A DNA stretch of 64,000 bases from Erysipelatoclostridium sp. An173 (GTDB taxonomy: Bacteria > Bacillota_I > Bacilli_A > Erysipelotrichales > Coprobacillaceae). Positions 20,518 through 23,853 of this stretch are shown here, one piece after another. The position numbers and the translations under genes were made by a program. The first letter of the stretch is position 1; the number at the start of each line of letters is the position of its first letter. Where the stretch lies: contig NZ_NFKR01000005.1 in assembly GCF_002160495.1 (NCBI RefSeq), positions 1 through 64,000 on the forward strand, given 5' to 3'. Under the pieces are notes generated by a model. The model was not told where the DNA came from and searched no databases. It worked only from the letters and a program-made list of their open reading frames with translations.

Positions 20518-20762
20518 TTATATCTTGAATGCTATACATCTGATTGTAGTGATCCGCCAGCTCATGCAGGAGTATGGTTGGCAGCTTGAAGTTGGGGGCA
20601 AGGTACTCGGCGCGGAGATTGATTTCTCGCTACTGGCATTCTGTATCTCGTTGATACTGTACCAGCCATGTGCTCTGTGCCCTCCGTCTTGCGATACAGT
20701 GATGGCAGGGAGACTCACTTGTCCTCATAAAAATCCTCGTTGAACAGATCGAACATTTCCCC
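20518..20762 (-). pseudogene. Frameshifted fragment of a SprT-like metallopeptidase gene
   Basis: On the minus strand, pieces in different frames encode MFDLFNEDFYED, LPAITVSQDGG..GWYSINEIQNASSEK and REINLRAEYL...LLHELADHYNQMYSIQD. They align in order with residues about 10-100 of the intact protein at 23170-23781. At least two frame changes and a stop break the gene, and the zinc motif reads HELAD instead of HEMAH. The C-terminal zinc-ribbon part is absent. This is a decayed duplicate. Confidence 0.8.
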
Positions 20763-20942
20763 GGTTTCCTATACACATTTAAAAGCCTATTCTGGCGGGG
20801 ATTGGATAATTCCAATTATCACCCTGTCAACTACTACCGAAATCCCTTGATGTTCATCAGATTTTATTCCTCTAAATGTGCAGACAAGAGGTTGTATTTA
20901 TGCTGTTTATGCTGTTCTGACCCAGCATAAAAGATATAGTGA

Positions 20943-20971
20943 TTGACAAACCAGGCTCTCCATAGTATTAT
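20943..20971 (+). promoter_or_regulatory. Sigma-A promoter of the ABC-F gene
   Basis: TTGACA at 20943-20948 and TATTAT at 20966-20971 with a 17-base spacer, about 40 bases before the leader peptide start. The stretch 20763-20942 has no recognisable gene. Confidence 0.75.
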
Positions 20972-21010
20972 TAGAAACAAGAGTTATACCTCTCAAAAGG
21001 AGATAAAGGC

Positions 21011-21106
21011 ATGATTATGAATTTTCATTTAACCGATCAGCGTAAAAAGAAAATCAGCTCTGTACAATCCATACCGATGAAACATTGTGCAGAGTATAGC
21101 GTATAA
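21011..21106 (+). CDS. Leader peptide (uORF) of the ABC-F gene
   Basis: 31 codons, MIMNFHLTDQ...HCAEYSV, with a very good ribosome binding site (AAAAGGAG, 8 bases before the ATG). It sits between the promoter and two terminators that precede the ABC-F gene. Its end overlaps one arm of an inverted repeat (CCGATGAAA 21074-21082 with TTTCATCGG 21121-21129). This is the layout of ribosome-stalling leader peptides that sense antibiotics. Function inferred from layout only. Confidence 0.65.
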   Translation: MIMNFHLTDQRKKKISSVQSIPMKHCAEYSV

Positions 21107-21197
21107 ATGACGCATTTCGATTTCATCGGGAAGCCATAAGGGGGATTTTATACCCATTTTGAGAAAGTGGCTTTCCATGCAGTTATAATGTGTATGA

Positions 21198-21235
21198 GGC
21201 TATGGACAATGTTTTGTCCATAGCCTTTTGTTTTT
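21198..21235 (+). terminator. Attenuator 1 of the ABC-F gene
   Basis: A perfect 12-bp stem GGCTATGGACAA/TTGTCCATAGCC with a 4-nt loop and TTTTGTTTTT tail, 100 bases before the ABC-F start codon and downstream of the promoter. Confidence 0.85.
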
Positions 21236-21251
21236 GGCGCTGCTATGCCAG

Positions 21252-21298
21252 AGGCAGAAGGCAGATACATTTGTGTATCTTTGCTTTCTGCCTTTTTC
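21252..21298 (+). terminator. Attenuator 2 of the ABC-F gene
   Basis: A long imperfect hairpin (AGGCAGAA..GATACA against TGTATC..TTCTGCCT) followed by TTTTT, 38 bases before the ABC-F start. It is a second terminator in tandem with the one at 21198. Confidence 0.7.
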
Positions 21299-21336
21299 GT
21301 TTGTATCAGAGAATATGCAGGAAAGGGTTAATAAAA

Positions 21337-22875
21337 ATGAGCTTATTAGAAATTGACGGACTGACACACTCTTTTGGTGAGAATGTGCTATACAAAAATG
21401 CAGGTTTCACACTCAATAAAGGAGAACATATTGGCATTGTCGGACAGAATGGAACCGGCAAAAGCACTTTAATCAAAATCTGTACAGAGCAGATCATACC
21501 AGACAGCGGGCGCATTGTCTGGCAGCCGAATACTACGATTGGTTATTTAGACCAATATGCGGAAATCGACCATACCTTAACGATGAAAGAATTTCTCAAA
21601 TCCGCTTTCACAAAGTTATTTGAAATGGAGGCACAGGCGTTGCAGCTATATGAAAGAGCTGCTGACGGTGATACGAAAAGCCTTGAACTGGCCGCCCATT
21701 ATCAGGAACAGCTTGAAGCCCATGACTTTTATTCGATAGATACCGCTATTGAGCGTGTCGCCAATGGGTTAGGACTTCTTGCGATTGGCCTTGACCGTCC
21801 GATTGCTGAAATGAGTGGCGGCCAGCGGGCAAAAGTGATTTTAGCAAAATTACTGCTGGAAAAGCCGGATGTCCTGTTGCTGGACGAGCCGACCAATTTT
21901 CTTGATAAAGACCATGTAACATGGCTGGCGGAATATTTATCTGCTTTGGAAAATGCTTTTTTAGTGGTTTCCCATGATTTCAATTTTCTGGATAAGATAG
22001 CGAACCGCATTTGTGATATAGACAATGACACGATTACAAAATACTACGGCACATATTCCGAATTTCTGCGGAAGAAAACCCTGCTGCGGGAAGATTATGT
22101 ACGGCAATATGCGGCCCAGCAAAAGGAAATTAAAAAGACAGAGGAATTTATACGGAAGAACATAGCGGGCAGAAAAGCAAAAATGGCGCGGGGACGGCAA
22201 AAGCAGCTTGACCGAATGGACAAAATGGAAGCCTTAGACCAAAAGGAAATTATTCCGCACTTCCATTTTCCCGTACTTCCATTAACCAATACAGAACACT
22301 TGTTGGTGAAACATCTGGCAGTTGGCTACCATTACCCCGTTTTATCAAACATTGAATTTAGCATTAAGGGAGGACAAAAAGTTGTTATTACTGGATTTAA
22401 TGGGATTGGAAAATCGACACTATTAAAAACCCTGATTGGGGAAATTCCATCTATGCAGGGCCATTTCAAATTTTCCGATCAGGTTACTATCGGATATTTT
22501 GAACAGGATTTAGAGTGGAAAGAACCTGAATTGACGCCCATTCAAATTGTTGCCAATGCTTATCCCAATATGGTGACAAAAGATGTCCGCAAGCATTTGG
22601 CACGATGCGGAATTTCCAGTAAACACGCTATGCAGTCCATAGGAACATTAAGCGGCGGCGAACAGGCAAAGGTAAAGATGTGTCTGCTTACTCTGACCCC
22701 CTGTAATTTCCTGATTATGGATGAACCTACAAACCATTTAGACGTACAGGCAAAAGAGGCTTTGAAAACAGCCCTTTCAACTTTTGCAGGAACGGTACTG
22801 CTCGTATCGCATGAGGAAGCATTTTATCGAGATTGGACACAACGAGTTATCAACATATTAAGGAACAACCTTTAA
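21337..22875 (+). CDS. ABC-F ribosomal protection protein (Lsa/CplR-like)
   Basis: 512 residues with two nucleotide-binding domains and no membrane segments, as in ARE-ABC-F proteins that bind the ribosomal E site and displace antibiotics. Walker A motifs are GQNGTGKS (from 36) and GFNGIGKS (353-360), signatures MSGGQRAKV and LSGGEQAKV, Walker B 'LLLDEPTNFLD' and 'LIMDEPTNHLD'. A charged interdomain linker of about 90 residues (roughly 195-300) is long enough to reach the peptidyl-transferase centre. The start is ATG 21337 after AAAGGG; codons further upstream lie in the attenuator. Likely resistance is to lincosamides, streptogramin A or pleuromutilins; the spectrum is inference. Confidence 0.87.
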   Translation: MSLLEIDGLTHSFGENVLYKNAGFTLNKGEHIGIVGQNGTGKSTLIKICTEQIIPDSGRIVWQPNTTIGYLDQYAEIDHTLTMKEFLKSAFTKLFEMEAQALQLYERAADGDTKSLELAAHYQEQLEAHDFYSIDTAIERVANGLGLLAIGLDRPIAEMSGGQRAKVILAKLLLEKPDVLLLDEPTNFLDKDHVTWLAEYLSALENAFLVVSHDFNFLDKIANRICDIDNDTITKYYGTYSEFLRKKTLLREDYVRQYAAQQKEIKKTEEFIRKNIAGRKAKMARGRQKQLDRMDKMEALDQKEIIPHFHFPVLPLTNTEHLLVKHLAVGYHYPVLSNIEFSIKGGQKVVITGFNGIGKSTLLKTLIGEIPSMQGHFKFSDQVTIGYFEQDLEWKEPELTPIQIVANAYPNMVTKDVRKHLARCGISSKHAMQSIGTLSGGEQAKVKMCLLTLTPCNFLIMDEPTNHLDVQAKEALKTALSTFAGTVLLVSHEEAFYRDWTQRVINILRNNL

Positions 22876-23169: not shown

Positions 23170-23781
23170 TTATTCCCGCTCGAAAGCCTCTCCGCAATCC
23201 CCGCAGATTACATTGACCTCCCGCGTTGCCCGGATAATGGTGCCGCAGCAGGGGCAAACATATTTGATGCTGCGGTTAATGGATTTCTTACTCCCGCCCT
23301 TGGTGGTGCCTTCCACCGGCAAGCGGCTGGCGTTGATCTTGTCCTCGCCCAAAGTTTTTCTGATCCATGCCTCCGCCTCCGGGGCCAGCGTCGTTGCCGT
23401 CCAGCCATACTTGGCGTGCTTCTCGATATGCAGGCCGTGGGCCTCAGCGGTGGCCTTAAATTTCTGGTTGTGGTAATAGCCGTTGTTGCTTACGTCTTGG
23501 ATGCCATGAACCAGATTGTAGAGATGCGCCATCTCATGCAGGAGCGTGGCTGCCAGCTCGAAGATGGGCCGGTCAAGGTACTCGGCGCAAAGATTGATTT
23601 CCCGATACTTCTCGCCGCTGGCGTTCCATATCTCGTTGATACTGCACCAGCCATAAGCCCCGCGCCCTCCGTCCGGCGATACAGTGATGGCCGGGCGGCT
23701 CAACTCGCCTTCGTAAAAATGCTCGTTGAACAGGTCGAACATTTCCTCGGTTTTTCTTACGATTTCAGATATTTGCAGCAT
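23170..23781 (-). CDS. SprT-like zinc metallopeptidase-type protein
   Basis: 203 residues. The N-terminal half carries HEMAH at residues 82-86 (zinc-binding HExxH) in 'LLHEMAHLYNLVHG', and the last 30 residues form a zinc ribbon (CPCCG..CGDCG). The layout matches SprT-like/transposon-encoded metallopeptidases common on Clostridial ICEs. Cellular SprT relatives act on DNA-protein crosslinks, but the ICE proteins are uncharacterised. The start is ATG 23781 behind AAGGAGG; longer frames upstream lack a site. A conserved repeat lies upstream at 23816. Confidence 0.8.
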   Translation of the reverse strand: MLQISEIVRKTEEMFDLFNEHFYEGELSRPAITVSPDGGRGAYGWCSINEIWNASGEKYREINLCAEYLDRPIFELAATLLHEMAHLYNLVHGIQDVSNNGYYHNQKFKATAEAHGLHIEKHAKYGWTATTLAPEAEAWIRKTLGEDKINASRLPVEGTTKGGSKKSINRSIKYVCPCCGTIIRATREVNVICGDCGEAFERE

Positions 23782-23815
23782 GGTTGCGTCCTCCTTAAAG
23801 ATATGTTTTATTTCT

Positions 23816-23853
23816 GTGAGTGACAGCTTACACACCACCGGTCAAAAAGCAAG
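23816..23853 (-). repeat. Upstream control repeat, copy a
   Basis: Plus-strand GTGAGTGACAGCTTACACAC then CACCGGTCAAAAAGCAAG. Near-identical copies are at 25177-25214 and 26998-27035. Each lies just upstream of a minus-strand gene or gene remnant, so it is probably a promoter or operator shared by these ICE genes. Confidence 0.75.

Follow-up and report, generated by a model that had tools for sequence, protein, structure and literature searches.

The ABC-F gene of Erysipelatoclostridium sp. An173 is probably controlled by a ribosome-mediated transcription attenuator, with a conserved leader peptide, an RNA hairpin (uup RNA) inside the leader reading frame, an antiterminator and two terminators in series as its predicted parts. 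We analyzed the element within a window of 64,000 nt (positions 1 to 64,000 of the forward strand of contig NZ_NFKR01000005.1, assembly GCF_002160495.1). An earlier sequence-only reading had proposed transcription attenuation by stalling on the leader, and computation bears this out through the conserved peptide, the antiterminator pairing (AT1) and modeled switching by a stalled ribosome. The computational support covers translation of the leader, the pairing of three RNA elements (P1, D and AT1) and the stall position; drug-induced stalling, the drug class, and termination and read-through are what we infer. New here are the leader family, a P1 hairpin within the ORF whose predicted pseudoknot partner lies downstream, a conserved second terminator and a predicted function for uup RNA. 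On this reading, an orphan Rfam motif gains a specific, testable function as a nascent-peptide antibiotic sensor, predictions follow for the class of drug, the codon of the stall and the precise strands to target by mutation, and uncharacterized ABC-F and Mef-like genes are marked as probably inducible drug-resistance genes.

Between 20943 and 21337, on the plus strand, the window holds in order a promoter, a leader ORF with its ribosome binding site (RBS), the leader hairpin, a further hairpin, terminators T1 and T2, and the RBS and start of the ABC-F gene. Every part of the anatomy described earlier from the letters (promoter, leader with RBS, inverted repeat, two terminators, ABC-F start) was found. 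The promoter (TTGACA-17-TATTAT, 20943–20971) agrees with the consensus at 11 of 12 positions. The ABC-F RBS, AGGAAAGG, was recognized by sequence at 21319–21326, and the gene (21337–22875, 512 aa) scored 400 bits against a cut-off of 380 with the NCBIfam ribosomal protection-like model NF000355.4; its role in resistance is putative. Its nearest relatives among solved structures were housekeeping-type ABC-Fs, followed by PoxtA. As for a named resistance family, the Vga, Lsa, Msr, Sal, OptrA and CplR models all remained below cut-off. Simple scans performed at chance level, with 4 promoter-like sites where 3.6 were expected and 1 terminator-like site where 1.1 was expected; the above-chance evidence is family membership and conservation.

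We compared 80 ABC-F loci with 58–100% identity, mostly from Lachnospiraceae and other Clostridia and one from Paenibacillus. An uup-like hairpin lay upstream of the gene in 76 of them (75 by pattern, L075 by eye). The other four were L050 and L074, whose records end short upstream, and L052 and L078, where no uup-like hairpin occurred within 700 bases upstream. In all, 102 upstream regions were collected; the hairpin was found by pattern in 92 and by hand in 6 more, for a total of 98, and the non-redundant set, at 0.85 similarity by simple string ratio, comprised 37 loci. One further locus, L092, has no T1 and stands outside this set. L077, L091, L092 and L109 fall below the Rfam cut-off and were counted by hand where stated, and T1 was placed by hand for L082, L089 and L108.

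The leader ORF (MIMNFHLTDQRKKKISSVQSIPMKHCAEYSV, 21011–21106) starts at ATG 21011, ends with the stop codon at 21104–21106 and spans 31 codons behind an RBS, AAAGGAG, at 20996–21002; translation from a second ATG in the same frame, at 21017, would make it 29 codons long, as is usual among relatives. Members of the same peptide family are present in the uup-bearing ABC-F loci, with a consensus in close relatives of about MNFxLTxxxKK(I/L)xSVQSxPMKHC(A/T)EYSV. The peptide is kept from Lachnospiraceae to Paenibacillus, and its first half only also in Vibrionaceae. Aligned at SVQ, 35 of the 37 non-redundant loci could be tabulated (L094 and L109 could not be anchored there). Lys or Arg occupied position −3 from SVQ in 34 of the 35 leaders, 27 had two or more basic residues within −5 to −3, and the start lay 14 codons from SVQ in 27; in the window the distance is 16 codons from ATG 21011 and 14 from ATG 21017. 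The window carries the basic patch RKKK at codons 11–14 (21041–21052), our proposed stall region in view of the Lys/Arg conservation and of modeled switching from codon 13.

To assess selection on the peptide we used the 13 codons preceding SVQ, most of the P1 hairpin lying downstream of them. In 19 Lachnospiraceae-type leaders, pN/pS was 0.46 in frame versus 1.10 and 0.65 in the other frames, and none of 200 column shuffles (mean 0.87) was as low. Across 34 leaders of all groups the value was 0.71, again with 0 of 200 shuffles as low. Together with the RBS, the in-frame value of 0.46 supports the prediction that the leader is translated. Beyond SVQ the frame is free to shift: Paenibacillus and Vibrionaceae retain the RNA sequence in another reading frame; given the low pN/pS before SVQ, the first half of the leader therefore appears to be held as peptide and the second half as RNA. 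The sequence-only reading had matched the leader to none that it knew, and its core strings indeed did not occur in the open-licence literature searched.

The inverted repeat noted earlier over the end of the leader is real, and its identity, absent from that description, is uup RNA. A scan of the 64 kb matched Rfam RF03060 over its full length (model positions 1–48 of 48) at 21048–21095, with 62.3 bits against a cut-off of 36.8 and an E value of 1.1e-9; this was the sole gathering-level Rfam match in the window and the only RF03060 locus found in its genome. Uup RNA was reportedly first described in a 2017 computational survey. The 2024 review PMC11477304, the only paper naming uup RNA in the open-licence literature searched, reports the motif from Bacillota and Gammaproteobacteria, in front of ABC ATPase genes. 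RF03060 is named in no paper of the open-licence literature searched. Judging from the related loci, uup RNA corresponds to the 3′ half of what is predicted to be a translated leader.

The P1 hairpin (21057–21095, −15.1 kcal/mol), the presumed anti-antiterminator, has its 5′ arm at 21057–21068 and its 3′ arm at 21084–21095. Its pairing was retained in 341 of 363 cells over 33 of the 37 loci (L070, L093, L106 and L109 were left out), with two-sided changes at 6 pairs. The loop segment CCGAUGAAA (21074–21082) can pair with the D element UUUCAUCGG (21121–21129), about 45 nt downstream of the loop. The TTCATC of D recurred in 35 of 37 loci versus about 1.2% expected by chance per window, and the pairing of loop with D held in 299 of 324 cells from 36 loci (1 of the 37 was left out), with two-sided changes at 3 pairs; in one such change, in L093, CCGGUGAAA pairs with UUUCGCCGG. 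The order of these pairings suggests that P1 and D form an H-type pseudoknot. A further hairpin (CGGGAAGCCA ... UGGCUUUCC, 21127–21176) was predicted by folding between these elements and T1, and relatives have similar hairpins.

In the mechanism that we propose, a leader translated quickly, with no drug at hand, would let P1 form and be locked to D by the pseudoknot. P1 would then hide the strand able to pair with T1, so that T1 would fold and transcription would stop, with T2 catching what leaks past T1. With a tunnel-binding antibiotic present, the ribosome would stall at codons 12–14, in the basic patch, where it would cover the P1 5′ arm and free the 3′ strand at 21080–21095. Once freed, this strand would pair with the T1 5′ arm at 21199–21214, T1 would be too late to form, and RNA polymerase would reach the ABC-F gene. 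P1, AT1 and T1 (21198–21235; a perfect 12-bp stem at 21198–21225, then U-rich sequence; −22.8 kcal/mol) are predicted to act as mutually exclusive anti-antiterminator, antiterminator and intrinsic terminator.

The alternative pairing of the P1 3′ strand with the T1 5′ arm and loop recurs among the relatives. Measured against dinucleotide shuffles, AT1 duplex energy had a mean z of −3.84 over the 37 loci, and the cognate pair was better than the mean of swapped partners in 31 of 37; AT1 was weak or hardly above shuffles in L082, L090, L095, L106 and L107. In the pair table, which covered 27 loci (L043, L082, L089, L090, L091, L095 and L106–L109 were left out), 373 of 432 cells were paired and 2 of 16 columns were mostly mismatched. 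Two-sided changes were few, at 2 of the 16 pairs and in 3 cells, and those of L075 and L077 fell at the same core pair.

To model the stalled ribosome, we kept the transcript unpaired between −14 and +15 of the P-site codon and ended it just before the T1 3′ arm. In nested folding of the window with no ribosome, AT1 had 0.2 expected pairs and P1 had 11.6. AT1 stayed off with the P-site at codons 1–11, rose to ∼10–11 pairs (about 10.7) at codons 13–19 and faded by codon 23. In the window model, then, stalling at codons 13–19 frees the antiterminator; exceptions are Paenibacillus, L093, L099 and L108. Modeled switching also starts in or beside the basic patch in L018, L020, L059, L065 and L089, while in L095 and L107 AT1 appears weakly or further downstream. 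In L077, L093, L098, L099 and L108, AT1 dominated the nested model, which leaves out the pseudoknot, already with no ribosome, and Paenibacillus loci are among those that behave in this way; the pseudoknot could stabilize P1 in such loci. At the decision point for T1 (transcript end 6 nt before the end of T1, P-site at the conserved basic codon), 22 of 35 loci gained more than 3 AT1 pairs through the stalled ribosome, and 15 of 35 lost more than 3 T1 pairs. When the T1 3′ arm of the window was fully out, T1 beat AT1 at equilibrium, and antitermination must therefore be kinetic. As the vmlR paper puts it for that system (PMC9226507), the antiterminator lies upstream and can form first.

The second terminator, T2 (21249–21300; a long imperfect stem at about 21249–21294 plus a U-tract), raises a clean question of how one signal switches serial attenuators. 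Hairpins like it follow T1 in 34 of the 37 loci, although that of L093 is weak and L082, L091 and L109 have none. The sequence-only reading had suggested a two-input switch; we rejected this idea because no second leader ORF or sensor was seen between T1 and T2 and because only 1 of 33 loci lost more than 3 T2 pairs in the modeled stall. The chance that T2 is a plain, unregulated fail-safe terminator, which merely cuts leak and maximum output, falls only a little short of even. The loss or weakening of T2 in L082, L091, L093 and L109, where leader and T1 stay, fits this reading, as does the single leader, but T2 is conserved in most loci and a strong unregulated terminator would block induced transcription as well. 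Coupling between the terminators, in which the freed T1 3′ arm would pair with the T2 5′ arm so that one stall disables both, seems unlikely by comparison. It draws on the complementarity of the T1 3′ arm and U-tract to the T2 5′ arm (mean z −2.3, 34 loci), which extends to the Vibrionaceae loci L107 and L108 with their different sequence, and on a possible linking helix, AT2, at 21223–21262 in the window (−25.6 kcal/mol vs −22.8 for T1 and −27.3 for T2). However, the G+C and U-tract composition that adjacent terminators have in common inflates such complementarity, and in folding the window helix forms with or without the ribosome. Since folding did not bear out the complementarity and the modeled effect of a stall on T2 is nearly nil, we keep T1–T2 coupling as a hypothesis and a rival, with a plain fail-safe T2 the likelier of the two. 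We hold as unlikely the most ambitious form of the proposal, in which uup RNA would serve Bacillota and Vibrionaceae alike as a portable drug sensor, pseudoknotted and translated, before ABC-F, Mef-like and MATE genes, and one stall would disable both terminators by strand exchange along a chain of P1, T1 and T2. No case of tandem terminators combined with attenuation and a leader peptide was found in the open-licence literature.

Searches of sampled genomes with RF03060 yielded 23 loci, the window included. The genes behind them comprised 18 ABC-Fs, 4 Mef-like MFS exporters (L091, L092, L093 and L099) and 1 MATE gene (L094). Among the ABC-F targets, that of L096 is degraded, and L083 and L084 were assigned by identity with L059 and L001; L096 keeps an intact uup leader before its degraded gene. 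We say only "Mef-like" because the Mef models matched well below their curated cut-offs, and the L099 protein as scanned began at an in-frame start further upstream, so that about 60 residues at its N-terminus are not MFS. In Vibrionaceae plasmids (L106–L108) uup RNA scores above cut-off, and MIYILFKNFVRRLNSVQIHDEVLLGA is an example of their leaders. Within the window's class and phylum the motif is patchy, occurring in 2 of 395 and 2 of 392 sampled genomes (the same two); in family samples taken around two other genomes it occurred in 10 of 250 and 9 of 104. The exact uup-core pattern had 0 matches in viral contigs. No uup-like leader was evident on reading the sequence upstream of the distant ABC-F homologues L104, L105 and L110–L113; an Rfam search of L104 and L110–L113 gave no RF03060 match, and the motif was found in 0 of 3 relatives of the Mef-like MFS (L114–L116). 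An Enterococcus wastewater "phage" contig (L109:1–1000), probably bacterial DNA, has an ABC-F gene behind a leader, MFFVLTDKLTRKVAPDSLRTDEALLWSRAINFFIA, that resembles uup but scores under the Rfam cut-off. In Enterococcus gilvus (L104:338–484), an unrelated short annotated ORF and a terminator-like hairpin precede an ABC-F 50% identical to that of the window, possibly another type of attenuator.

DNA homology between the window and nine close relatives from other genera (L002–L010) was confined to about 20930–22857, starting at window positions 20930–21016. As the homology excludes the flanks, promoter, leader, terminators and ABC-F gene seem to move as one cassette. Lachnoclostridium sp. An181 (L001) matched the window over 4.26 kb at 98.4%. 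We also observed a 259-bp direct repeat of 79.5% identity at 20523–20767 and 23495–23753. A SprT-like gene is present as a remnant upstream of the cassette and in full downstream (23170–23838, minus strand), the cassette lying as if placed between partial SprT-like duplicates.

The drugs sensed are most likely macrolide-type tunnel binders rather than lincosamides or pleuromutilins. Three observations lead to this choice: the basic patch coincides with the switching codons, and 22 of 35 leaders have Arg/Lys-X-Arg/Lys (+X+) among the 7 residues that precede SVQ (the window has RKKK); Mef-like exporters lie behind the same uup element; and the leader of a related exporter gene, in L115, nearly equals the macrolide leader MTASMRLR. 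The +X+ motif is described in PMC8298421 as an arrest motif of macrolides, especially ketolides, and MTASMRLR in PMC4335068 as the macrolide leader of mef(E). The L115 (Niallia) MFS is 45% identical to the exporter of L093 and its leader reads TTG-TASMRLRFSPFIR, that is, xTASMRLRFSPFIR. On this Niallia taxi megaplasmid (L115:439–483), the Mef-like MFS gene is preceded by the MTASMRLR-type leader, with its TTG start, and by terminator-like repeats. This arrangement, in an almost unannotated record, is a putative macrolide attenuator. Against a macrolide, 13 of the 35 leaders lack +X+ near SVQ. Sensing of lincosamides, pleuromutilins or streptogramins, as first envisaged, is probably wrong: the pleuromutilin, lincosamide and streptogramin A group is described in PMC10201436 as inhibiting just after initiation, and in our model ribosomes stalled at codons 1–11 are too far upstream to switch.

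It is improbable that the attenuator senses any slowing of translation, or a shortage of charged tRNA, instead of a class of drug. Runs of basic codons are conserved and any stall at codons 13–19 flips the model, as such a sensor would have it, but Lys and Arg interchange freely at the key position, unlike in a sensor of one amino acid, and the targets are drug exporters and ABC-Fs. Slightly less probable still is a ligand-binding, riboswitch-like aptamer of P1 and pseudoknot acting on T1, with the leader ORF incidental: the very conserved loop nucleotides, the pseudoknot, the RNA sequence kept across the 3′ arm where Paenibacillus and Vibrionaceae shift frame, and the place given to uup RNA among riboswitch-like motifs in PMC11477304, which notes that further evidence of its being a riboswitch is lacking, would all suit it, but the peptide-level selection upstream of the hairpin, the Lys/Arg at a fixed codon, the strong leader RBS and the mixture of drug-resistance targets in place of one metabolic pathway all argue against it.

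The attenuator reading places the element beside several known systems. The window hairpin matches Rfam uup RNA in full and, as PMC11477304 describes for that motif, lies upstream of an ABC ATPase gene; in contrast to the Rfam model, the sequence here forms part of a leader ORF, and the loop finds its pairing partner downstream, beyond the model's end. Like bmrCD (PMC4191407), it would be a case of ribosome-mediated transcription attenuation of a drug-resistance gene, although the leader differs and the bmrCD target is an ABC exporter. With vmlR of Bacillus subtilis and cplR of Clostridioides difficile, as described in PMC9226507 and PMC10201436, it shares an ABC-F gene under a uORF proposed to stall with antibiotic, alternative folds and a terminator. 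However, the uORF consensus given for those systems is about 3 codons (MIN, MR[I/M]) with the stall expected near initiation, unlike the uup leader, and they also hide the RBS of the gene, whereas no sequestering of the window's ABC-F RBS was noticed on inspection. The macrolide attenuators of mef(E)/mel (msrD) and of ermK/ermD, in the accounts of PMC4335068 and PMC10314930, likewise have a leader with a basic arrest motif, a terminator and an antiterminator, and the mef(E)/mel type too controls an MFS exporter plus an ABC-F. Their leaders are of the MTASMRLR type with 8–14 codons, whereas uup leaders run to 29–31 codons and carry the basic patch internally, at codons 11–14, and the hairpin within the ORF, the pseudoknot and the second terminator set the uup element apart from the mef and erm attenuators as those accounts present them. 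Going by its predicted parts, the element probably belongs to the same class as the attenuators of mef(E)/mel, ermK, vmlR and cplR and operates in the same manner.
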